Shown piece after piece: positions 1 through 10,532 of a stretch of DNA of 10,532 nucleotides. This DNA is from Nitrospirota bacterium (GTDB lineage: Bacteria; Nitrospirota; Nitrospiria; Nitrospirales; Nitrospiraceae), in contig VBOM01000221.1 in NCBI GenBank assembly GCA_005877535.1, positions 1 to 10,532 of the forward strand. The letters are read 5' to 3'. Position 1 is the first letter of the stretch. Every line of letters starts with the position of its first letter. The notes below the pieces were generated by a model. It had not been told where the DNA came from, searched no databases, and saw only the letters and a program-made list of their open reading frames with translations. The translations under genes were made by a program, and so were the position numbers.

Positions 1-523
1 TCAGTGTGCCAAAGCCCTTGGCATTCATGTCGACGCCTTTGTTGTCTTTGTTCTTCCAATACCAAATATTCACCGGGCCGCCTTCCACCTGCGCCATCGG
101 CTGGCCATGCGCAAAGTGGGCCTTCTTGTCGCCCACCATGAACTCAATCGCGGCCGCATCGTCCGGATCCTCCGTCGGGTCGACGTACTCCAGCAGAATG
201 GCGACGTTGGTCCCGTCATGCAAGGCACGCACGTTCAGATCTTTGACCGTCGCATCCAGAATACGAGTCGGCCAATGGACTTGAGGCGACATCGGGAATC
301 TCGCCAGGGTCGCGCTGTTCCACACAGCAGCAGTCGGGTCATCGATCGGCAGGCCGCCCTTCACCATCGGAGCGCTGACTGAGACGCTTTGCAGGGTTGA
401 GACGGGCGGAGCGGTGGCCGCGACCTTTTCCTCGGCTGAGACGGGCTGCACAATCAGAAACCCCATGGCAAGCCCTATGCCGACGACGACATTCGGAACG
501 ATTTGACTCAGTCCGCGTATCAT
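1..523 (-). CDS. Secreted heme-binding protein, EbdC/NxrC-like (type II DMSO reductase gamma-subunit family), 3' end outside window
   Basis: This frame is open from ATG at 523 to the window edge, giving 174 residues. Residues 1-30 form a signal peptide (basic start, hydrophobic 8-26, likely cleavage after VSA). The mature part opens with a PMVKGGLPIDDPTAAVWNSA stretch and continues with beta-rich sequence ending in GGPVNIWYWKNK (about 148-159). These resemble the ethylbenzene-dehydrogenase/DMSO-reductase gamma heme b domain. In that family a Met and a Lys bind the heme; Met143 and Lys157 are candidates here (hand alignment). The family passes electrons from a periplasmic molybdoenzyme such as nitrite oxidoreductase to c-type cytochromes. 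A purine-rich GAGAGAGGA lies about 8 bases upstream of the ATG. A 266-bp repeat-rich gap separates it from the cytochrome genes, so it may be transcribed separately. The family is fairly sure; identity as NxrC rather than a paralogue is not. Confidence 0.72.
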   Translation of the reverse strand, partial: MIRGLSQIVPNVVVGIGLAMGFLIVQPVSAEEKVAATAPPVSTLQSVSVSAPMVKGGLPIDDPTAAVWNSATLARFPMSPQVHWPTRILDATVKDLNVRALHDGTNVAILLEYVDPTEDPDDAAAIEFMVGDKKAHFAHGQPMAQVEGGPVNIWYWKNKDNKGVDMNAKGFGTL

Positions 524-789: not shown

Positions 790-1506
790 CTACTCCCACG
801 TCCTCGGCGATTGATGCGCTCCATCGTACTCGCCCATGATGATTTTCCAGATCCATTCGTCAGGAAGTTCGACTTCCCAGCGAGGCATTGCGGATTTCCA
901 TGGCATCCCCTCGATTGGGAGGCCCACGCCGCCCTTTTTGATGCGCCAGAAGAGATAGCTTTCCTGGAGCATGGCGATCGTTGTTGGATCGGAGAAGTTG
1001 GCTGGGGGAGGATTGAACCCCCTGGCCGCCGGACCCTTGCCATCGAAGTTTCCGCCGTGGCAGGGGGAACAGAACGCAGCATAGAAACCCTTCCCCTGCT
1101 GGATGTTGTCTGGTGTCTTTGCAACGGGACTCGACAAGCCGGTATATTCGCCTGGCGGAGCCGGGTGAATCGTCCGGTTTTCTGATGGCGGCGCATCACT
1201 CACCGCCGTATTGTTATAGGTTTGCCAGCCGACCAGCAAAGGGAACAGAATCAGGACGCCGTAACGCACTGCTTGCAGCCCGCCAATATTCTCTCCCGTC
1301 AGGAACCGTTGGATCGGGCCCCAGAAGGCCTCTTTGGACTCTGCGCTCAATGTGGCAAAGATCAGAAAGCCCGACGTCGTCAGCATCAGATAGAGAAAAA
1401 CCAGACTGGCCGGCAGCGGCGCGGAGCCAGGGACATTGGGCACGACAAACTTGCAGATCACATAGGCGATCACATTCAAAATGATGAGTTTGATCAATGG
1501 CCCCAT
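790..1506 (-). CDS. Membrane-anchored monoheme c-type cytochrome
   Basis: The 238-residue protein has three N-terminal hydrophobic segments (about 4-22, 33-52, 80-97). A periplasmic class I-like cytochrome c domain follows, with heme-binding CSPCH at 146-150. The likely sixth heme ligand is Met201 or Met207 in the segment GLPIEGMPWKSAMPRW. The C-terminal part (FWRIKKGG ... PDEWIWKIIMGE) resembles the cytochrome at the right edge of the window, so the two are probably paralogues. The start is well supported: GAGGAGGA (1511-1518) lies four bases before the ATG and overlaps the stop of the preceding cytochrome gene, implying translational coupling. It probably accepts or delivers electrons on the periplasmic face for the neighbouring CydA-like/cytochrome b complex. 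The specific partner is unknown. Confidence 0.85.
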   Translation of the reverse strand: MGPLIKLIILNVIAYVICKFVVPNVPGSAPLPASLVFLYLMLTTSGFLIFATLSAESKEAFWGPIQRFLTGENIGGLQAVRYGVLILFPLLVGWQTYNNTAVSDAPPSENRTIHPAPPGEYTGLSSPVAKTPDNIQQGKGFYAAFCSPCHGGNFDGKGPAARGFNPPPANFSDPTTIAMLQESYLFWRIKKGGVGLPIEGMPWKSAMPRWEVELPDEWIWKIIMGEYDGAHQSPRTWE

Positions 1507-1516
1507 ATGTTCCTCC

Positions 1517-2140
1517 TCAGTGCGCTTGCGCCACGGCCACTGGACCGGACTGGGCTGCCTTCGCAGGAGCGGCAGGTGCCTGTCCCGGCGCGTCCAGTTC
1601 AGTTACAGTGACAGAAATCGGTTCCCCGCTCATCTGCTGCAGAAATGCAATGACCGAGAGAATCTCATTCCTGGACAGCCCGATCGGATTCTTATTAATG
1701 TAGGGCATCCGGGCCGGATACTCCTTCGCCACTCCTTCATGGCGATAGTCGAGATAGATATAGGCCTGCGGTTGCGTCAAACTTTCAAAAAGAAACTCGC
1801 GGCTCAACTTGGCCCCAATCCCCTTTAGGTCCGGGCATCGGGCCGATTCGCTGGGGCCGATCGTGTGACAAAGCGCGCATTGGCCCTTACTAAAGAAAAT
1901 CTTCTGCCCGATGGTCGCCATGTCGGTCGGCGTTTTCACCGTGGCAATATCGAATTTCTCCTCGACAGGCGGCAACGACGCCATTTGCGGCACCGACAAC
2001 GCGACGAGGGTGAAGAGGCCAAGCACTATCGCGACAAATCCAATGACCCGGACGAACGAGGCGCGAATGAAGAGGAGGATCAGGATCCCGATTCCCACCA
2101 CTGAGAGACCAATCAACTGCAACTTGACAACTTCGCTCAT
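1517..2140 (-). CDS. Membrane-anchored monoheme c-type cytochrome
   Basis: The 207-residue protein has two close transmembrane segments (about 7-25 and 31-50) and then a periplasmic cytochrome c domain. Heme-binding CALCH is at 88-92 and the likely Met ligand is Met145 in ARMPYINKN. The region between them (CPDLKGIGAKLSREFLFESLTQP) is typical of small class I cytochromes that have a gap after the heme motif. An Ala/Pro-rich tail (184-207) follows the last helix (NEILSVIAFLQQM). ATG at 2140 is preferred over an in-frame GTG at 2146 because GGAAGG (2147-2152) sits six bases upstream of the ATG. The gene is ten bases from the next cytochrome, and the two probably act together. It is likely an electron shuttle subunit; the partner is inferred only from context. 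Confidence 0.84.
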   Translation of the reverse strand: MSEVVKLQLIGLSVVGIGILILLFIRASFVRVIGFVAIVLGLFTLVALSVPQMASLPPVEEKFDIATVKTPTDMATIGQKIFFSKGQCALCHTIGPSESARCPDLKGIGAKLSREFLFESLTQPQAYIYLDYRHEGVAKEYPARMPYINKNPIGLSRNEILSVIAFLQQMSGEPISVTVTELDAPGQAPAAPAKAAQSGPVAVAQAH

Positions 2141-2146
2141 AACCAC

Positions 2147-2152
2147 CCTTCC
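2147..2152 (-). promoter_or_regulatory. Ribosome binding site deciding start of the 1517-2140 gene
   Basis: On the minus strand GGAAGG ends six bases before the ATG at 2138-2140. The alternative GTG at 2144-2146 would lie directly next to this motif and is therefore unlikely. Confidence 0.6.
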
Positions 2153-2165
2153 GTGTGGAATGGTA

Positions 2166-2235
2166 AATGTTGAATGTTCAATGTTGAATGGAGAGTCAAC
2201 TCAACATTCCTAATTCATAATCCACAATTCATCAA
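2166..2235. repeat. Heptamer-phased degenerate repeat in intergenic spacer
   Basis: On the plus strand the spacer divides into ten consecutive 7-base units. The first four are AATGTTG, AATGTTC, AATGTTG, AATGGAG; later units are more degenerate (TCAACAT, TCCTAAT, TCATAAT, CCACAAT, TCATCAA). It fills most of the gap between the CydA-like gene ending at 2232 and the cytochrome gene starting at 2140. It is AT-rich, unlike its GC-rich surroundings. A second heptamer-phased array occurs at 5130-5164. Confidence 0.65.
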
Positions 2236-4088
2236 TGCGCTTTCGGTTCATCGAGCGCACTCGATGCGCCTGCCATCGCCGGCATGCCCTGCGGCAACTC
2301 GACCTTACTCGCTCCACCAGGCGCCTTCGCCTTATCGCCCATCGTGGCCACCCAGAAGATGAAGGCGACAAGCATGCAGAAAAAAAATGTGTTCAAGGAC
2401 ATGAGCGCAGCAGCATAGCCGAGCGCCGGTGAAAACGCGTAGGGGGACGTATCGCGGACCACGCCATAGACATGCCAATGGACGCGGGAGGACGACCGTG
2501 CGTAGCCCATCAGCGTCATCAGGAGGACGACCATGACCGCGTTGAGGACGAGCGAGTAACCGGCTCGTGGAGGCATCTTGCCCCAGACCATTTCCGTTGT
2601 GGTCTTGGCACTTCTCAGCAACAAGGCCGTCAGCGGGGTGATCGTCAACATGACACCGAGCACGACCAACACCTGCGACGTCGAGAAGTAATTGATGCGA
2701 ATGATAGCGGGAACGAAATACCCCCACACGCCAAGGATGATAACCGCGATCGCCGCGGAGGCAAGGATGGCGCCCATGATCGCTTTGGCGACCTTGGCCC
2801 AGCCAGCCGTTTCCTGCTTGCCGGCCCGCCAATACATGATGAAGCTCATGAATGTGACGAGGATCATCAGATTCGCCACGGTCATCTTGGCCGACATGAC
2901 GCCGAACACGCCAAGAAGCGGATGGTGGCTGCCCCCCATCTTTCTCGCTTCTTCCATACTGGCCACAAGCGAGTGGGGTGTCATCCAGACGCCCAGGCAA
3001 AGCAGCAGAGCAATCAACATCGCCAGCATCGGCTTCCGGTATTTTATCTCAGAGCCGGGGATGCGATAGGTGATCCCCAGCCAGAAATAATAGTTCGATC
3101 CGAGAAAGAGCACCCCGATGAGCATGGCTTGCAGAATGAACAGCCAGGACAGAAAGCCTCCCATGAGCGTGATGCCCATCTGCTGGTTGTACTGGTAAAT
3201 TTCCCGCATGAGCCAGTAGCCGGCAAAAGGGAGCGCCAAGAGACCGAATACGCCGATGAAGTTCCCGACATAGCCCATCCAGTCGTAATGGTCGCGCTCT
3301 TCCGTATTCGTGGCAGACAGATAGCGAATCCCGGCATAGGCGCCGCAAATGTAGCCGCCGAGCACTACGTTCGCAATCAGGCGGTGAATGTTCACCGGCC
3401 ACCAGGTCGGATTCCATGTCGCGGCCCAGGCCCGCGCCATATCCGACCCCTCGGCAAGCACGACCGGACTGGACTGGAACGTCGCCCAGGAGTTCGGCAC
3501 GACCATGATGAAGAACGCGAAGAAGTTCAGCAGGAAGCCGAGGAAAATATGAAACGTCTTCTTGCCGCCATCTTGCATCGCATCCCAGCCATACCAATAG
3601 AGATACAGCGTCGCGGTCTCGACCAAGAACAGGATGCAATACACAATAAAAGACGGAAAGAAAATATCGGTGAGGTAGTTCATCAGCTTGGGATAAAACG
3701 AGATCAGCAGGAACAGCAGGATGCCGCCGAAGAGCGCCGTTGTGGCATAGGCGGAGGTCAGGAGCTTGGTGAATTCCTTGGCTAATTTGTCGTAGCGTTT
3801 TTCGCCGGTCTTCCAGGCAACGACTTCGCACAACCAGGCAAAGATCGGTACACCCAGCACAAATCCCGCGAGCAACAAATGGAGCTGCGCGACAACCCAG
3901 ATGATGTTGCGACTCCCGACGTAGGGAACGTCGCGATACTCGACCGGGGCTGCCGGCGTGGCATCTGCCCCAAAGGCCAGCGCGGGAAGGCTGAGGAGGC
4001 CCACTGCCATTACGAGCCCCAAGAGCGTCCCCCCATGACCGCTGCTGCTCCGGAGAAGCTTCTGAATCCATCCACCCTGATGTTGCAT
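2232..4088 (-). CDS. CydA-like (cytochrome bd-like) membrane protein B
   Basis: The 618-residue protein has a signal-like N-terminus (hydrophobic 21-40, possible cleavage after LAFG) and about 13 transmembrane segments. The N-terminal half aligns by eye with CydA. His70 (WVVAQLHLLLAG) corresponds to the heme b595 ligand His19, Glu157 (FLVETATLYLYWYGWDAM) to Glu107, and His235 (VNIHRLIANVV) to the heme b558 ligand His186. The Glu99 position is Val149. No clear quinol loop and no adjacent cydB are seen, so ordinary quinol oxidase activity is doubtful. Relative to the paralogue at 8008-9750 it has about 72 extra residues (about 422-500). Such proteins in Nitrospira have been proposed as terminal oxidases or as membrane subunits of a complex III-like assembly; neither role is proven here. 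ATG 4088 is chosen over GTG 4112 because GAGGTG lies six bases upstream. Confidence 0.85.
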   Translation of the reverse strand: MQHQGGWIQKLLRSSSGHGGTLLGLVMAVGLLSLPALAFGADATPAAPVEYRDVPYVGSRNIIWVVAQLHLLLAGFVLGVPIFAWLCEVVAWKTGEKRYDKLAKEFTKLLTSAYATTALFGGILLFLLISFYPKLMNYLTDIFFPSFIVYCILFLVETATLYLYWYGWDAMQDGGKKTFHIFLGFLLNFFAFFIMVVPNSWATFQSSPVVLAEGSDMARAWAATWNPTWWPVNIHRLIANVVLGGYICGAYAGIRYLSATNTEERDHYDWMGYVGNFIGVFGLLALPFAGYWLMREIYQYNQQMGITLMGGFLSWLFILQAMLIGVLFLGSNYYFWLGITYRIPGSEIKYRKPMLAMLIALLLCLGVWMTPHSLVASMEEARKMGGSHHPLLGVFGVMSAKMTVANLMILVTFMSFIMYWRAGKQETAGWAKVAKAIMGAILASAAIAVIILGVWGYFVPAIIRINYFSTSQVLVVLGVMLTITPLTALLLRSAKTTTEMVWGKMPPRAGYSLVLNAVMVVLLMTLMGYARSSSRVHWHVYGVVRDTSPYAFSPALGYAAALMSLNTFFFCMLVAFIFWVATMGDKAKAPGGASKVELPQGMPAMAGASSALDEPKAH

Positions 4089-4091
4089 TGC

Positions 4092-4100
4092 CCTCACCTC
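4092..4100 (-). promoter_or_regulatory. Strong ribosome binding site of CydA-like gene B
   Basis: GAGGTGAGG on the minus strand lies upstream of ATG 4086-4088, with GAGGTG six bases from the start. The longer frame beginning with GTG at 4110-4112 would translate through this site, so the ATG is the better start. Confidence 0.7.
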
Positions 4101-4113
4101 ATCATCTCCCACG

Positions 4114-5118
4114 TTACGGTTTCATGGCGGCAGGCGGAGCCGGTTCTGCTGCTTCCGGCGCTTTCACTGCTTCTTTGCTGGCCTGGCCTTTTCCCTTGTT
4201 CTGCTCTTTTTCCAGTTCAGCTGCGGCCTGCTGTTCTACCAGCAACTCCACCTTCGCCGCAAGCTGCGCAATCATTTTCTCGTCTTTATTCAGTGTCTCA
4301 AGCGGTTTGATTGGGGGCGCTGCTTTCACTTCCGCCTTCTTGCAACAGTCGTGCGGGTGCGGTGTAGACACAGGGAGAGAAGACCAGAACAGGAGCGATA
4401 ACAGAACGGCTACACCGGCCAAGGCTGTCAGCATCAATCCTTGATCCCCCGGCACCCGCATCAGATCCCAGCGGGTAATCAGCCCCTGATAATTCTCCGA
4501 CGGATGACCTGCTGCCTTCACCGTGCCACGGATCACCCGCCCCACGAGCGAGAAACCGATGACTAACAACGACACAAGCGCCCCTGTGGCAGCTGTGCCC
4601 CAGAGGGTCAGTTCAATGCTGATCCGCTCCGCCACAGGAATTCCCCTCAGAGAATCCGACTCAAACATCGAATGGACTGCCGAGATCGAGGCTTCAGTAA
4701 TCGCACTCTCAGCCACCCAGAGGATCGGCACAAAGATGGCGCCGACCAATGCGCACTTCCACCAGAGCGTCAGCCCCAACCCATCTTGCGGTTCGCGCCC
4801 CAACCGTTCGAGGAAAAATGTTCGGCCCACGAGCCCGAGCGCCCAGATGTCGATCGGAATCGCCAACAAGAACAGCAACGCGATGCCGGCTCCTTCACCG
4901 ATGTGCGAGTCCAATCCCAGGGTGATCGTTGGCAGCGCAAACACCGTGACCGGACTCGCCAGGAGCACCAAGAACGCGAGAGCGATTCTGGTTTCAAAAT
5001 GCACGATCCCGAACGCCATAAAAAGCACGGCAAAGGCAAGTTTGATCGGCAAGCCGGTCCAGAAGGCGGGCCAGAGAATGCCGAACCCGAGCTTTGTGGG
5101 AGAGATCTGATCGTTCAT
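4114..5118 (-). CDS. Unrecognised multi-spanning membrane protein with CysCys motif and coiled-coil tail
   Basis: I do not recognise this family. The 334-residue protein has about six to seven hydrophobic segments (near 10-34, 44-63, 76-98, 117-135, 168-192, 227-247). These are followed by HPHDCCKK (254-261), a Lys/Glu/Ala-rich probable coiled coil (about 275-310) and a Pro/Ala-rich end. The paired cysteines next to two histidines could bind a metal or heme or form a disulfide, but this is not a CXXCH motif. The gene ends 25 bases before CydA-like gene B, so the two are probably co-transcribed, and it may be an assembly or accessory subunit of the same complex. The frame extends to 5202, but the upstream 28 residues read through repeat-like sequence and lack membrane or conserved features, so ATG 5118 is chosen. 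No strong ribosome binding site is seen there. Confidence 0.72.
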
Positions 5119-5484
5119 GCAAATACCCAACGATGAACAAGGGACGATGAACGATGAACGACAGCGGGCCCGGATGACTTCGGCGTTCTGCGTGCATCGC
5201 ACGTCATGGATAACAGGAGAACAGCGGCAGGACGCTCAAAAAGACTAGACTTCTCACCAGCCCAACCCTGGCGCACCGAGACGCGCCTTTCCGCTGGCAA
5301 GGCCGCAACGAGCGAAGAGGCGAGGAGGTACGTACCGCACTTCGTGTGGGCCGTTCGCCCTTTGAATGGATCTTGGCGAACGGAAGCACCCCTCCAGTGA
5401 TTCCGATATCCGAGAGGGTCTCCCCAGTAGCTTGAGCCTCTGAGCGATGCGAGAACGTCGCTGGCGGACTTTTTCAGCATCCTG
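5119..5484. other. 366-bp gene-free spacer between the two blocks
   Basis: From the low end the spacer holds a heptamer-phased repeat (5130-5164), a small palindrome with arms CGTGC/GCACG (5191-5203), and a 259-bp MITE-like element (5227-5485). Short open frames here run through the repeats and have no recognisable protein features. Any promoter for the 4114-5118 gene should lie in this interval, but none can be pointed to. Confidence 0.6.
5130..5164. repeat. Heptamer-phased repeat upstream of the 4114-5118 gene
   Basis: There are five consecutive 7-base units on the plus strand: ACGATGA, ACAAGGG, ACGATGA, ACGATGA, ACGACAG. The array ends about 11 bases before the ATG at 5118, the same kind of position as the array at 2166-2235, so it would lie in the 5' untranslated or intercistronic RNA. 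Confidence 0.65.
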
Positions 5485-5485
5485 C
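5227..5485. mobile_element. MITE-like element with 17-bp terminal inverted repeats
   Basis: The left end is GCAGGACGCTCAAAAAG (5227-5243) and the right end is CTTTTTCAGCATCCTGC (5469-5485). They are inverted copies matching at 15 of 17 positions. Inside are a perfect 9-bp hairpin CCGTTCGCC/GGCGAACGG (5351-5359 and 5375-5383), a 10-bp palindrome GGTACGTACC (5327-5336), and nested arms GGAGG/CCTCC and AGAGGC/GCCTCT. There is no transposase gene. The right end touches the TAG stop of cytochrome b, sharing base 5485. The part at 5251-5304 resembles the spacer at 592-650. From memory, such GCAGGATGCTGAAAAAG-type ends recur in Nitrospira spacers, which needs a genome count to confirm. Transcribed, it would fold into a long structured RNA between the two gene blocks. 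Confidence 0.68.
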
Positions 5486-6423
5486 TAGTCCAAATACTCT
5501 CGATTGATAATGGCAGAGACCGTGAAAAGCAGGATCGAAACTATGAGCACCACCCATCCGATAAGGGCAAAAGGGCGCTTGAAAATATTCCGCTCGGGGT
5601 TCCTGTCGAAGAAGGGCAAAAGCACCAGCACGGCCCCAAGGAGGCCTGGCAAGAGCATCGAACCGAGAAACTGTCCAAACTCGCCGGAAAACATCTTCAG
5701 ACGCAGGTGCTGGAATAAGAACAAGAAGTACCATTCCGGTTCCGGGTGATAATCGCCGGGATCAGGCGTCGCCTCTTCCAACAAGACGACCGGCTCCCAG
5801 AAGGCCAGCGCACTGATGCAGGCAAAGACCACCGCCATCCCGACGACGTCCTTCCAAATCTGCCGTGGAAAAAAATAGTCGGTCTTCGCCTTCAGCTCTA
5901 CCGGCGTACCGCGGAATGGACCAGCCGGTCCCGCACATCTAAACAGGAAGAGATGCAACCCGGCCAACCCAATCAGGGCTGCGGGGAGCACCATGACGTG
6001 AATGACAAAGAACCGGCTCAATGTCATCTGTCCGGGGGTCGGGCCTCCCTTGAGGAAACGCGACATGAAGTCGCCAAGCAACGGCATCTTATCCATAATC
6101 TCGACGCCGACCGTCGTGGCCCAATAGGCTCGCTGGTCCCACGGGAGCAAATAGCCTGTGAAGCCGAATCCCATGACGATGGCGAAGAGCGCCAACCCAA
6201 CCAGCCAGATGAGTTCGCGCGGTTTCTTATACGCGCCCCAGAGAAAGACTTGGGACATATGAGCAAACACGCAGATCACCATGGCCGAGGAGCCCCAGAA
6301 ATGGTAACCCAGTAGGAACCAGCCGTAGTCGACGTCATGAATAATGTATTGGGTACTGGCATAGGCATGGTCGGCGGTCGGCACGTAGTAGAACATCAGC
6401 AGCACGCCCGTGATCGTCCTCAT
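5485..6423 (-). CDS. Cytochrome b (b6-type, fused b6/subunit IV), N-terminally short
   Basis: This 312-residue quinone-reactive subunit of a bc/b6f-type complex has the four heme b ligands His41 and His55 (14 apart) and His142 and His157 (15 apart, the b6f-like spacing). The Qo-site PEWY is at 229-232 (HPEPEWYFLFLF). The b6 and subunit IV parts are one chain. It begins MRTITGVLLMFYYVPT: the usual N-terminal amphipathic segment and the first half of helix A are missing. Its ATG directly follows the Rieske TAG stop in the same frame, so no upstream in-frame extension is possible without readthrough. Only a weak GGA-containing site precedes it. The short form could be a true lineage feature, a deletion, or an assembly fault. 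Its stop codon abuts the MITE-like element. Confidence 0.88.
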   Translation of the reverse strand: MRTITGVLLMFYYVPTADHAYASTQYIIHDVDYGWFLLGYHFWGSSAMVICVFAHMSQVFLWGAYKKPRELIWLVGLALFAIVMGFGFTGYLLPWDQRAYWATTVGVEIMDKMPLLGDFMSRFLKGGPTPGQMTLSRFFVIHVMVLPAALIGLAGLHLFLFRCAGPAGPFRGTPVELKAKTDYFFPRQIWKDVVGMAVVFACISALAFWEPVVLLEEATPDPGDYHPEPEWYFLFLFQHLRLKMFSGEFGQFLGSMLLPGLLGAVLVLLPFFDRNPERNIFKRPFALIGWVVLIVSILLFTVSAIINREYLD

Positions 6424-7356
6424 CTAAACGATCCGCGTTTGGGACTTCGTCCCGGCCTTGAATTCCATATCGATAATTTGCACCTCGCCACTCGGGGATA
6501 CCTGAATCGGCAGCAGGTCGAGGGGGCGCGGGGCGGGGCCCTCCAGCACCTTGCCGGACGCGTCATAAATGCTCAAGTGGCAGGGGCAGAGGAAGACTTG
6601 CCCGAGTATCTTGTGTTTTCGCCATTTATATCCGCAACCAAGGTGGGGACATTTGCCGGAAAATGCGAGGTAGGGCATATCCTTCTTATTGGTCCAGATG
6701 GCTTTCCCTGTGGCATCCCGGAATTCCATATCCTTCCCCTGATACACCTTTTCCAACACTGGAGGAGTCGCCTTGACGAGCCACACATTCTTCTCGATCT
6801 CAGCTTCAGGCATATAGGCTTCTTTGACATTGCGCTTGTACTTGAACTGGGTCCCAGCATCGTCCACCTTCACCTTCCCGATGTTGCCGATCTTCAGCCA
6901 TCTGTTATCCAACGGTGCATACATCGGTTTCATCAAGTACTTCAGCACTGGGAAGGCCAGCGGCAATCCTATAAACAGCCCCGTCACGTAGGTCAAGTTT
7001 GCGAAAAACTTCCGCCGCTTGACGTTCCGCTCCAGATCAGGGAACGGCACCAGGACTTCGCCCGGTGTGACGTGAATATGCCTCTCGAGGCCAGGGATTT
7101 CCACTTCATGCAGGGTGACATAGTCTTCACGCTTGAAAGGAGGCAAGGCCATGACTTCGGACGAGGACGACCGCAGTTGCACCAGATCGTCCGTCACAGT
7201 CTGCACAGCGCCCATCGATACTTGTCGTTCGCCCGCGCCGTTCATCGATACGACGAGATGGCTGACCTCATGGGACAACGGGTCCATGATGACCTTGGCC
7301 ACTTCTCCGACTTCTCGATCCGCACAGCGGACTTTCGATTTCAGTTGAGGCTGCAT
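6424..7356 (-). CDS. Rieske iron-sulfur protein with N-terminal PRC-barrel-like domain
   Basis: The 310-residue Rieske subunit carries the 2Fe-2S ligand motifs CPHLGC (236-241) and CPCH (257-260), followed by the usual GPAPRPLDLLP. One transmembrane helix lies at about 117-138, just after a basic NVKRRK. Ahead of it, residues 1-105 (KVRCADREVGEVAKVIMDP then VSHLVV) look like a PRC-barrel domain. That domain is not part of classical bc1 or b6f Rieske proteins and would face the cytoplasm. The protein transfers electrons between quinol at cytochrome b and a c-type cytochrome in the periplasm. The ATG is one base after the stop of the cytochrome c gene and the stop abuts the ATG of cytochrome b, so expression is probably coupled. 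The Rieske call is firm; the PRC call rests on pattern only. Confidence 0.9.
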   Translation of the reverse strand: MQPQLKSKVRCADREVGEVAKVIMDPLSHEVSHLVVSMNGAGERQVSMGAVQTVTDDLVQLRSSSSEVMALPPFKREDYVTLHEVEIPGLERHIHVTPGEVLVPFPDLERNVKRRKFFANLTYVTGLFIGLPLAFPVLKYLMKPMYAPLDNRWLKIGNIGKVKVDDAGTQFKYKRNVKEAYMPEAEIEKNVWLVKATPPVLEKVYQGKDMEFRDATGKAIWTNKKDMPYLAFSGKCPHLGCGYKWRKHKILGQVFLCPCHLSIYDASGKVLEGPAPRPLDLLPIQVSPSGEVQIIDMEFKAGTKSQTRIV

Positions 7357-7357
7357 G

Positions 7358-7816
7358 CTACTTCTTCTTGATCGGTTTTGGAGTGTTCACCGATGTATTC
7401 TTGAAAGTACCCAGCCAGGAGGCGAGCGCCACGACGTCGCCTGGCTCCATGAGATCCTTATATTTGTCCGGCATCTTGCCCTTCTCCCACTCCTTCTCGA
7501 ATCCCTCGGCCATAAAGCTCTTGGGATCCAGAATTTTCTGTTTAATGTCGTCGACCGTGAGATATGTGCCGATGTTGTCCAACTCCGGACCGCGCTTCTT
7601 CCCACCCTCACCCTTGAGCTTATGACAATTGTAACATTCTTGTAGCTGCCACTGCTCTTCACCAAGCTTCATAAAGTCTCCGGTTGCCACGCTGGCCGTG
7701 ACCGGAGGAGAATCGCCGGTCGTCGGCCCTTTCGTCACCTGATCCCCGCCGAGCGCCCTGAGGCGAATTTCCAGGGCTTTCACCTGCTCATCAAGTGACT
7801 TCGCACGTGCGATCAA
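7358..7816 (-). CDS. Monoheme c-type cytochrome without signal peptide, TTG start
   Basis: The 152-residue protein has a charged, probable coiled-coil N-terminus (SLDEQVKALEIRLRAL, 7-22), a Gly/Pro/Thr linker, and a cytochrome c domain. CYNCH is at 61-65 and the likely Met ligand is Met115 in KGKMPDKYKDLM. A lysine-rich tail ends the protein. Heme attachment needs export, yet no signal peptide or membrane segment is present. In this frame a TAG stop lies immediately before the TTG codon, and the TTG overlaps the TGA of the small membrane ORF (TTGA). The small ORF plus this gene may descend from one membrane-anchored cytochrome that was interrupted. The gene lies one base upstream of the Rieske ATG and is a good candidate for the cytochrome c1/f-like partner of the Rieske/cytochrome b pair. 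The exact start is uncertain. Confidence 0.78.
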   Translation of the reverse strand: MIARAKSLDEQVKALEIRLRALGGDQVTKGPTTGDSPPVTASVATGDFMKLGEEQWQLQECYNCHKLKGEGGKKRGPELDNIGTYLTVDDIKQKILDPKSFMAEGFEKEWEKGKMPDKYKDLMEPGDVVALASWLGTFKNTSVNTPKPIKKK

Positions 7817-7968
7817 CTATCCAGCAACATGAAGACAGCAGCCCCCAACATCGCGTAGCCGAAGAACATCATCTGGAAAATAAAGGGAAACTCGAGCGCC
7901 CTCGTAATACCGACAAGCACGCCGCCCACCACCAGACCGATCGACAGCTTCTTTATCACATTCCACAT
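7813..7968 (-). CDS. Small membrane protein (51 residues), possible detached anchor of the next cytochrome
   Basis: The frame starts at ATG 7968 and begins MWNVIKKLSIGLVVGGVLVG. It has two hydrophobic segments (about 8-21 and 28-49) separated by ITRALEF, and ends AAVFMLLDS. The basic start plus first hydrophobic stretch could act as an uncleaved signal anchor. A purine-rich AAGGAAAGAGAG is seen upstream. It begins 39 bases after CydA-like gene A and its TGA overlaps the TTG start of the cytochrome gene, so translation is probably coupled. The cytochrome lacks an export signal, so this may be the N-terminal half of a split or decayed anchored cytochrome, or an independent small subunit. I do not recognise a family. 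Confidence 0.6.
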   Translation of the reverse strand: MWNVIKKLSIGLVVGGVLVGITRALEFPFIFQMMFFGYAMLGAAVFMLLDS

Positions 7969-8007
7969 GCAGACTCTCTTTCCTTCAGTAGGCGTTCCGC
8001 ACCCCGG

Positions 8008-9750
8008 TTACTTGGCCCTGGCAGGAACAGGATCTCCCTCGGGTGCATGCCCCTTCGAATCGGAAGGTCGAAGGGTTACGATAATGGCGAAACTGACGAC
8101 TACGAAAAAGACGACAGTGATCCCGGTAATCCACCAGGCGGAATACGACAGCGTCGGCGTGAAGGACTCCGCGGTGAAATCGGGCAACAAATTGTAGGTA
8201 TGGTAGTACTTCCGCAGCAGCGAACGGACTGCGCCCATCAACCCCATCGTCCAAATTGAACTGAAGGCGAGAAAGATCAGCACGAACTGGGAGGCGAAAT
8301 CAATTTTCCCCCAGATAATCGTGCCCTGCCTGATAGCCCGGTTATAAATGACGTAGTTGACGACCGTGACGAACACCAAGGTGAACGCCGCCGAATTCTT
8401 GGCCGGCATCAACGCCAGGAAGTTCCAATCCGACGGCAGCTCCAACTCCGCCACCAACTTGGCGCCGGTCGGAACGAATCCGTGGGGGGTGAGCCAGATG
8501 GCATCGCCCACGACGACCATCAAGAACCCGATTTTAATGACGGTCCGCGCAGAAACAGTCTGCGGAATGAACCGGCCCACCAGCGGGATGAACCGGACCA
8601 GCGGGACGAACCGGGCCAGAGTAAACGGCGCCAGGATCAACGGCAGAAGGAACGCCAACGACATCGGGTCGGGAACCGGATAGTCCGTCATCACCTTGGT
8701 CATCACCAGGGGGAGCGCCACCATCACGATGGGAGCCAGGATGGTCATCCGGACCTTTTCGACCCCCTCAATACGTTTCATACTGAGCCAGATGTAATAG
8801 TTACTGGCCAAGAACATGAGTCCGATCATCGCTCCTTGCATTTCAAAAAACATCGAGAGTTGGTCAGCCATCATGTACGGGCAGATCGACGCATCGTAGT
8901 CGCAGAGCTCATACGCCAACAGATACCCCATGAAGGGCAGGAACAGCATCGCGCCCACTCCGATTAGATTTCCGACGAAGCCCATCCAATCGTAGTAGGC
9001 CCGCTCTTCATCCTTTTTCGCTCCCATGTACATGTAGGCGGCAATCATGCCCGCCACAAATCCTCCGAACGTGACGTTACCGACAATCCGGTGGAGATTG
9101 AGCGGCATCCAGCTATAGTTGGCAATTTTGTCCCACAAGGTCGCGACTGCGAGGAACTCTTGTGGCGAAACACCCTCGGCCTTCACAGGAGTATTCATGA
9201 ACGAGGTCGGGCCGTTGATCACAACCAGCGTGACCAGACCGATCAGATTCAAGAGCACCCCGAGGGCGATATGACGGGCCTTCTTCTCACCTTTCCAGGC
9301 GTCCCAGGTGTAGAAATACAGGTATAACAAGATGGTTTCGCTGATGAACAACAGCGGGTAGATCACCGCAAACACGAGGAAGAAGTGATTGATGAACCAC
9401 GTGGTGAACTGCGGGTATGTCGCGAGAAGCACGAAAATAAACAGGCCACCGGTGAGGGCAGTCATGCTGTAGAGAATGACCGTGACCTTTGTGACCTCTT
9501 TTGCCAAGCGATCGTATCGAGGCTCTTGCTTCCGATACCCCATCCATTCTGAGATCACGACAAAAATCGGGGCGCCGAGAATGAACGCCGCAAACAGAAT
9601 GTGAAGCTGGGCGACGATCCATACCGCGGTCCGATTCCCCGTATAGGGAAACTCCACCGGAGGCGCGCCAGGAGCTTGTGCATACGCCACTCCTCCGATC
9701 AACGCCAGAAGCGCACATGCCGCCACGAGACTACGCTGCCAAGTTTTCAT
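8008..9750 (-). CDS. CydA-like (cytochrome bd-like) membrane protein A
   Basis: The 580-residue protein has a clear signal peptide (MKTWQRSLVAACALLALIGG, probable cleavage after AYA at 24) and about 13 transmembrane segments. Residues matching CydA heme ligands by eye are His50 (WIVAQLHILFAAF), Glu138 (ISETILLYLYFYTWDAW) and His220 (LNLHRIVGNV). The CydA Glu99 position is Ile130. A quinol loop is not evident and no cydB is nearby. It is paralogous to the protein at 2232-4088, sharing YDWMG.VGN.IGV, SNYY.WL, a TPH motif (421-423) and a late MG-R-S segment. It has about 65 extra residues before TPH, including the RFVPLV-type repeat, and lacks about 72 residues found in the other protein after the shared RA (471-472). 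It heads the tight block with Rieske and cytochrome b, suggesting a structural partner of that complex. Oxidase function is unproven. Confidence 0.86.
   Translation of the reverse strand: MKTWQRSLVAACALLALIGGVAYAQAPGAPPVEFPYTGNRTAVWIVAQLHILFAAFILGAPIFVVISEWMGYRKQEPRYDRLAKEVTKVTVILYSMTALTGGLFIFVLLATYPQFTTWFINHFFLVFAVIYPLLFISETILLYLYFYTWDAWKGEKKARHIALGVLLNLIGLVTLVVINGPTSFMNTPVKAEGVSPQEFLAVATLWDKIANYSWMPLNLHRIVGNVTFGGFVAGMIAAYMYMGAKKDEERAYYDWMGFVGNLIGVGAMLFLPFMGYLLAYELCDYDASICPYMMADQLSMFFEMQGAMIGLMFLASNYYIWLSMKRIEGVEKVRMTILAPIVMVALPLVMTKVMTDYPVPDPMSLAFLLPLILAPFTLARFVPLVRFIPLVGRFIPQTVSARTVIKIGFLMVVVGDAIWLTPHGFVPTGAKLVAELELPSDWNFLALMPAKNSAAFTLVFVTVVNYVIYNRAIRQGTIIWGKIDFASQFVLIFLAFSSIWTMGLMGAVRSLLRKYYHTYNLLPDFTAESFTPTLSYSAWWITGITVVFFVVVSFAIIVTLRPSDSKGHAPEGDPVPARAK
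8560..8613 (-). repeat. In-frame tandem repeat inside CydA-like gene A
   Basis: Three units of about 18-21 bases encode RFVPLV, RFIPLVG and RFIPQ (residues 380-397). The DNA units are also similar (GGGATGAACCGGACCAGC and GGGACGAACCGGGCCAGA on the plus strand), so this looks like a recent or conserved micro-duplication. It lies in the part absent from the paralogue and would form an Arg-studded amphipathic stretch between membrane helices. Confidence 0.7.
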
Positions 9751-10096: not shown

Positions 10097-10532
10097 TTAC
10101 TTGCCCGCCGGTGCCGGAGCAGCTGAAGCTGCCGGAGCAGCAGGAGCAGCCGAGACGCTTGCCACATCAACCCAAGATTTCTTGTCGGCGTCCCATCCCT
10201 TCCCGGCCAGCCCGAAGTTCCGCTCAAACAGCATCACCTTCCAGATATCTTCTTCTGGCAGCTTACTCTTCCACGCCTTCATCTTCGTATTGGGAACCCC
10301 TTCGGAAATCCGCCAGATCCACACTGAATCGGAGTAGAGCTTCATCCGCTCGCCGACGCGGAAGTCACGGGCACCCGCCTTGACCGGCTTGCCGTCCTTG
10401 CCATGGCAGCTGGCACAATTTACATCGGGGTTTGTCTCGCCGATGAAGATCTTCCGCCCTTCTTCCATTTTGGCCGCATCGGCCCACCAACCGGCCGGCA
10501 TATGTTTGTCGGCGTACTCAGCAGGAGCAGGC
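10097..10532 (-). CDS. Monoheme c-type cytochrome, 5' end outside window
   Basis: The reading frame stays open to the right edge (PAPAEYADKH precedes the internal Met at 10501), so the true start is outside and about 145 residues are visible. It contains heme-binding CASCH in PDVNCASCHGKDGKP, a GARDFR segment, WIWRISEGVPNTKMKAWKSK with the probable Met ligand, and PEEDIWKVMLFERNFG. This is the layout of small periplasmic class I cytochromes. It ends in an Ala/Pro-rich tail of about 20 residues. The Trp-rich and Met-ligand region resembles the cytochrome at 790-1506, indicating paralogy. It is separated from the next gene by 346 bases, so it may belong to a different transcript. It is probably a periplasmic electron carrier or complex subunit. 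Confidence 0.84.
   Translation of the reverse strand, partial: PAPAEYADKHMPAGWWADAAKMEEGRKIFIGETNPDVNCASCHGKDGKPVKAGARDFRVGERMKLYSDSVWIWRISEGVPNTKMKAWKSKLPEEDIWKVMLFERNFGLAGKGWDADKKSWVDVASVSAAPAAPAASAAPAPAGK

Follow-up and report, generated by a model that had tools for sequence, protein, structure and literature searches.

The window analysed here, the whole 10,532-base contig VBOM01000221.1 of a Nitrospirota bacterium, carries a respiratory gene cluster in which two CydA-like membrane proteins, called bd1 and bd2 below, stand in one row with a Rieske iron-sulfur protein, cytochrome b, c-type cytochromes and an NxrC-like protein. Comparison with related genomes leads to the point that is new here: the cluster looks to be built from two separable modules. 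Judged from co-occurrence, bd1 belongs with one type of complex III, and two usually coupled modules appear to fit better than one indivisible complex. A respiratory hub of two modules, in which bd1 would be a subunit of complex III and bd2 a cytochrome c oxidase, is proposed with evenly divided confidence. The basis of this reading is gene content, gene order, co-occurrence of the modules, conserved candidate ligand residues, and the CydA fold of the bd2 model.

Organization of the gene cluster

The source genome is 79.8% complete and consists of 505 contigs. The genes of the cluster, all on the minus strand, are listed in the order of transcription.

10097..10531, minus strand: cytC1, c-type cytochrome with one CxxCH, truncated at its 5' end by the contig boundary (Pfam Cytochrome_CBB3/Cytochrom_C)
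8008..9750, minus strand: bd1, CydA-like membrane protein of 580 residues (PF01654, E 3.5e-22)
7813..7968 (about), minus strand: two-helix open reading frame of 51 residues, the detached N-terminal hairpin of cytC2 by comparison with relatives
7358..7816, minus strand: cytC2, remaining C-terminal heme domain with one CxxCH (Pfam Cytochrom_C)
6424..7356, minus strand: Rieske iron-sulfur protein of 310 residues (PF00355, E 6.2e-9; CPHLGC and CPCH)
5485..6423, minus strand: cytochrome b, b6 and subunit-IV-like parts in one chain (PF13631/PF00033/PF00032)
4114..5118, minus strand: six-helix protein of 334 residues (six hydrophobic segments)
2232..4112, minus strand: bd2, CydA-like, candidate terminal oxidase, of the bd-like_2 / NIDE0901 type by description (Pfam Cyt_bd_oxida_I, E 7.2e-20)
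1517..2146, minus strand: cytC3, membrane-anchored monoheme cytochrome c (Pfam Cytochrom_C; one hydrophobic segment)
790..1506, minus strand: cytC4, membrane-anchored monoheme cytochrome c (one CxxCH; three hydrophobic segments)
2..523, minus strand: NxrC-like protein, cut, resembling EB_dh and the heme b subunit of type II dimethyl sulfoxide reductase (PF09459, E 7.6e-9)

The cluster is longer than positions 790 to 9,750 at both ends, by the NxrC-like/EB_dh protein (2-523) and a cytochrome c (10097-10531), and both of these are truncated by the contig ends. Against TIGR03477 the NxrC-like protein gave an E-value of 1.8e-15, under the cut-off. Each of the four cytochrome c proteins (790-1506, 1517-2146, 7358-7816, 10097-10531) has one CxxCH. 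A first-pass annotation of this DNA had described a composite cluster of two CydA-like proteins, Rieske, cytochrome b and several c-type cytochromes with no cydB. All of the named parts were found on the minus strand, and the absence of cydB was borne out: CydB (PF02322) was not detected in the window genome, at its completeness of 79.8%, and of 30 relatives searched 25 likewise gave no match.

Distribution of bd1 and bd2

Among 116 genomes of the class, a bd1 orthologue (at least 57% identity in the best segment) is present in 89 and this type of Rieske protein (E ≤ 1e-60) also in 89; 88 genomes are common to both sets by hand count. The two unmatched genomes are G200, with a contig gap, and G301, where the Rieske gene lies 1.1 kb from a contig start. 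This distribution indicates that bd1 belongs with one complex III type. Family f43 (four genomes, 73-96% complete) has bd1, cytC2, Rieske and cytochrome b together in L222, L223 and L224, and partially in L225. No bd2 orthologue was found in these four genomes: the best bd2-like proteins show 46% identity (G329, G333, G335), which is no closer than paralogues seen elsewhere, and none was seen in G331.

The opposite case is also observed. In most of the regions L092 and L094-L106, bd2 occurs without bd1 but with cytC3, cytC4 or NxrC, some of them having only bd2, and bd2 without bd1 is seen in loci of f6, f9, f10, f11, f13, f17 and f18. A genome-wide search for bd1, made for the class members among the bd2-only loci, found no bd1 orthologue in the sampled genomes of f6, f9, f10 and f11. 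The occurrence of bd1, Rieske and cytochrome b without bd2 in f43, and of bd2, cytochrome c and NxrC without bd1, argues against one obligatory complex. Thus, of the joint complex that the first-pass annotation had suggested, the shared gene order is supported by its conservation, whereas an obligatory assembly is not. In four loci of f9 and f6 (L096, L098, L101, L102), a bd2 fused to cytochrome c is accompanied by antiporter-like genes, an NxrC-like gene, a different Rieske protein and a split cytochrome b. In other words, two unlike arrangements tie bd2 to a complex III, and this supports a cooperation of the two.

These distributions also bear on the possibility that bd1 and bd2 form one heterodimeric oxidase of the OR-N CydAA' type, with bd1 in the place of CydB and a separate complex III encoded alongside. 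The pairing of OR-N1 and OR-N2 CydA is a published hypothesis (PMC12342949; PMC10839748), and bd1 and bd2 are homologous over nearly their full length (hhalign E 3.5e-76) and stand together in 89 complete rows. However, bd1 of f43 stands with Rieske and cytochrome b where no bd2 orthologue was found, the seven families named above have loci with bd2 and no bd1, and bd1 is placed in the Rieske-side half of the row. The heterodimer is thus considered rather unlikely.

Conservation of gene order

The comparison of gene order across Nitrospirota that the first-pass annotation had proposed shows that the order is kept. With the best tblastn matches, the ten-gene order is complete on one strand in 89 of 96 other loci, and the remaining seven (L012, L052, L076, L084, L209, L216, L218) are collinear up to a contig end. 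This tally ignores MrpD genes, so that L020 is counted as complete although its bd2-cytC3 fusion is separated from cytC4 by two MrpD genes. The cytC1 gene directly precedes bd1 in each of the 89 complete rows. A search for the six-helix protein, which covered Nitrospirota only, detected it in 97 of 295 genomes, the window's own included, and all 97 are in the window's taxonomic order (families f1, f2 and f3). In G200, a member of the order with no match, the place of this gene falls in a contig gap. The ten-gene row is absent from f43, the fourth family of the order. By its conservation, the gene row is more than chance. Misassembly of this genome as the source of the composite row was therefore rejected. 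The number of contigs, the completeness and two internal deletions in the contig could raise such a suspicion, but the same row recurs in the 89 loci, several of them from one-contig genomes, and the probability of an artefact is negligible.

It should be mentioned that the flanking genes are conserved as well. In all 75 loci with that flank (e.g. L008), a diheme cytochrome c gene follows the NxrC-like gene, and after it comes an antisense gene for a UbiA-family prenyltransferase (PF01040, E 6.3e-53), which may link the cluster to the quinone pathway. A radical-SAM/DUF3463 gene flanks the cluster in 70 of 74 loci. Gene order inside the order could accordingly result from slow rearrangement alone and is weak evidence; since the flank genes are equally kept, synteny inside the order was rejected as a sole argument, and the comparison was extended to sister families.

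Seven sister-family loci (L089, L090, L091, L093, L118, L120, L122) have the row cytC1, bd1, cytC2, Rieske, cytochrome b and a small one-helix protein. On contigs that extend far enough, bd2 and its neighbours come next; no bd2 is in view in L118, and L093 has the MrpD variant described below. In these loci the radical-SAM flank gene was not seen, and ubiA was seen only in L091.

The sister families help to weigh the idea of a co-regulated operon whose products, complex III, a bd-like oxidase and cytochromes both soluble and anchored, are separate enzymes linked only via diffusing cytochrome c. The functionally unrelated flank genes, likewise syntenic in the order, and the occurrence of the modules apart in other families would fit this idea. 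It is less easily reconciled with the like row in sister families, where the flank genes are mostly not in view, and with the clustering of a different Rieske and split cytochrome b with bd2 in the four f9 and f6 loci. A divergent cassette of fused bd2 and MrpD, at the same place beside complex III in four genomes, also speaks against it. Separate enzymes seem unlikely on this evidence, though still a serious possibility.

A small protein with a HEADHRF stretch is encoded 5' of cytC1 in 57 of 74 loci and also in the seven sister-family loci. It also adjoins the other Rieske type in L096, L098 and L102, and it matches CarboxypepD_reg only at E 0.095. This protein accompanies both complex III types and may belong to the complex.

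The CydA-like proteins

Both bd1 and bd2 match Pfam Cyt_bd_oxida_I only over the N-terminal half (roughly positions 1-240 of the 418 in the profile), and the alignment to canonical CydA stops at residue 249-260, near the Q-loop. In bd1, the residues H50, H160, H220 and H517 are kept in all 78 rows of the order and in 18 of 18 bd1 rows from seven families. H50, E138 and H220 align with the first-helix His, the E107-like Glu and the H186-like His of canonical CydA, respectively (E. coli residue names).

In bd2, numbered on a 617-residue chain starting at 4085, H69, H179, H234, H266, H371, H387, H388, H536, H538 and E156 are present in every one of the 78 rows of the order (L020 and L067 were excluded from this conservation table by a length filter; a bd1 row, L012, was also taken out of it, as were three bd2 rows, L052, L076 and L084, from the bd1 table). 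A wider set of 53 rows was made up of one from the window, 25 from chosen loci and 27 drawn from L020 together with loci numbered 88 or higher. In this set H179, H234, H371 and H538 are invariant, H69 is found in all 52 rows having that column, and H388, H387 and H536 are kept in 52, 51 and 47 rows. In a profile alignment, bd1 has no His at the positions of H387 and H388 and a Tyr at that of H536.

The structure model of bd2 shows a CydA fold. The canonical cytochrome bd (CydAB) shares this fold, the first-helix His, the E107-like Glu and the H186-like His. In contrast to it, the cluster has no CydB, the GRQPW motif is absent from both bd1 and bd2, E99 is not kept in the alignment, and the C-terminal half is not alignable.

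The bd-like proteins might not reduce O2 at all, but serve as electron-transfer or quinone-reactive subunits carrying electrons from cytochrome c to quinone, in a manner like alternative complex III. This seems improbable: most Nitrospirales are described as lacking a canonical heme-copper oxidase (PMC10579370), bd2 retains the extra conserved His, and ion-pump subunits join the fused bd2 even in loci with no bc genes in view (L127, L131).

Complex III genes and the six-helix protein

The Rieske protein has both 2Fe-2S motifs, CPHLGC and CPCH. Its extra N-terminal domain (window 7059-7356) shows a weak likeness to the PRC-barrel (E 0.073, under the curated cut-off). Cytochrome b has four spaced heme His residues, 41/55 and 142/157, and PEWY at 229. 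The Rieske motifs, the two heme-b His pairs and PEWY are shared with the bc1/b6f complex, but the cytochrome b of this contig, first helix included, is not complete. The window protein starts immediately behind the stop of the Rieske gene and is short of about 58 N-terminal residues that are present in all 16 relatives compared. A database cytochrome b that is 99% identical and represents 462 member sequences has 370 residues, and those 97-98% identical have 370-373. Among 120 listed matches most have 356-375 residues and some are shorter (252-348), including one of 343 residues at 99% identity. The full length of the 99% identical database protein means that intact copies exist in near-identical strains.

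Similarly, cytC2 of the window has about 65 residues missing and a frame change relative to the nine relatives compared, which left the 51-residue hairpin frame. In these relatives the hairpin is the N-terminus of a single cytC2 frame of 272-284 residues; the 51-residue frame itself has no Pfam match at E ≤ 0.1. The deletions in cytochrome b and cytC2 may be either assembly errors or real.

The six-helix protein matches nothing in Pfam or NCBIfam at E ≤ 0.01, and its model has a pTM (predicted template modelling score) of 0.58. The region of its last helix weakly resembles the small one-helix protein found at the same place in sister families. The stretch between the cytochrome b and six-helix genes (5120-5480) is a mosaic interspersed repeat. 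Scoring of 40 of 147 first-look candidates gave 66 matches within the genome, one of them the stretch itself; the others are fragments about 30-280 bases long that are 78-100% identical to it.

Natural hybrids with MrpD subunits

In four relatives, the place of bd2 in the row is taken by a bd2 fused to cytochrome c (bd2c) and two Mrp/complex-I-like ion-pump subunits, MrpD1 and MrpD2. The hybrid loci are L020/L126, L093/L125, L113 and L124; the arrangement is bd2c-MrpD-MrpD in three genomes and MrpD-MrpD-bd2c in L113. In L020 it is cytC3 that is fused to bd2, and both MrpD proteins match Proton_antipo_M (E 6.5e-58 and 6.5e-41). Homologues of MrpD1 (E ≤ 1e-150) were found in 5 of 235 genomes of the order: inside the composite row in G167 (L126) and G414, and elsewhere in three f43 genomes. 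Outside the order, the hybrid occurs in G264 (L125, Hainich) and also in L124 (groundwater). The window itself has no MrpD genes on its contig, and no MrpD1 homologue was found in its genome at E ≤ 1e-150.

Of 79 named loci with a relative of MrpD2, five also carry a bd-like protein, and three of these are composite. The other 74 (L128-L130, L132-L202) have no bd-like genes in the fetched stretch, and many are titled Deltaproteobacteria or Desulfobacter-type.

In quickly built trees, whose branches are long and several of whose forks are weak, bd2c of the hybrid cassettes separates from the f6/f9 MrpD type. At the position of E156, all six cassette sequences have Ser or Thr; the remaining 50 of 56 rows, among them those of the f6/f9 MrpD type, have Glu. 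This loss might reflect a changed proton route once the ion-pump subunits had joined, and it may have been a single event.

Relation to known systems

The cluster and the supercomplex idea are already published and not new; the physical assembly remains a proposal. In Nitrospira moscoviensis, a highly transcribed region carries CIII_1, bd-like_1, bd-like_2 and alt_nxrC_1, for which Mundinger et al. put forward a III–IV supercomplex in 2019 (PMC6606698). By its description in the text, the window cluster corresponds to this one. Both have Rieske and cytochrome b, two bd-like proteins, several cytochromes c and a membrane-anchored NxrC, and in both two cytochrome c genes lie between the putative oxidase (bd-like_2 or bd2) and the NxrC gene. 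No difference from that description was found, apart from the damaged cytochrome b and cytC2 of the window copy.

OR-N CydAA' and a NIDE0901-like oxidase have also been described (PMC12342949; OR-N also in PMC10839748). The OR-N type and the window have in common a pair of CydA-like chains, the lack of both CydB and a recognisable Q-loop, and nearby cytochrome c genes. In contrast, bd1 of the window type follows complex III, not bd2, across the sampled families.

Complexes of bd-like proteins bearing MrpD are known as the TO complexes of Ca. Manganitrophaceae, of which TO_2 has two MrpD-like subunits (PMC9040806). By their description, these resemble the window in combining bd-like proteins with cytochromes; unlike them, the window lacks MrpD genes and has bd1 and an unsplit cytochrome b. 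The portions of the literature available to us contain no mention of a linkage between bd1 and complex III, or of an MrpD-bearing composite in Nitrospira.

Proposed function

In the two-module reading, cytC1, bd1, cytC2, Rieske, cytochrome b and the six-helix protein would form complex III (module A). The CydA-like bd1 would be its heme-b membrane subunit, with a structural or electron-transfer role, and not an oxidase. Module B (bd2, cytC3, cytC4 and the NxrC-like protein) would be a terminal oxidase on a CydA fold, fed by cytochrome c. Electrons from nitrite would enter the anchored cytochromes c, from which bd2 would pass most of them to O2. The bc part, driven backwards by the proton motive force, would send some to the methyl-plastoquinone pool; with quinol as the donor, it would run forward. 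The two modules, presumably in contact, would share the anchored cytochromes c and the NxrC-like protein, and the latter may dock nitrite oxidoreductase. Methyl-plastoquinone of Nitrospira was measured at +57/+59 mV, and complex III working in both directions was proposed for Nitrospira (PMC12324825). This potential is consistent with a bc complex that can operate either way.

Several observations weigh against this reading. The role of bd1 is argued from co-occurrence, and no biochemical evidence for the modules was found. The published pairing of OR-N1 and OR-N2 CydA as one oxidase could make bd1 the partner of bd2. This Rieske type was not found in the f3 genomes G332 and G334, where the loci are broken off at contig ends, and the window's own cytochrome b and cytC2 are incomplete. 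The flanking genes are also syntenic inside the order. Among the candidate ligands, E138 of bd1 is kept in 72 of 78 rows of the order and is Gly in the other six. H536 of bd2 is Tyr in the sister-family composites L089 and L090 and Pro in L124, and H387 is replaced in two far rows. Furthermore, bd-like proteins of Nitrospinae are described as lacking two of the proposed ligands (PMC8026999).

Biological significance

Nitrospira is widespread and oxidises nitrite or, completely, ammonia. The means by which it reduces O2, in most cases with no usual heme-copper oxidase, is an open question, as is how it pushes electrons uphill to quinone. The cluster supplies candidate parts for both processes, and the likeliest arrangement is that the bd1 and bd2 modules cooperate in O2 respiration and reverse electron flow. 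The separation into modules sharpens the question of whether bd1 works with complex III or with bd2, and the natural hybrids with MrpD bear on the coupling of the oxidase to ion movement. A more far-reaching picture is offered only tentatively, as one that is probably not correct in full. In it, a distinct kind of complex III with bd1 as a built-in heme subunit on a CydA fold would be docked, in Nitrospirales and sister families, to an interchangeable oxidase module of the same fold, and some lineages would have swapped in a module with two ion pumps whose bd2 lost the Glu at the proton-path position. If true, O2 reduction, quinone chemistry and ion pumping would be combined in one machine.

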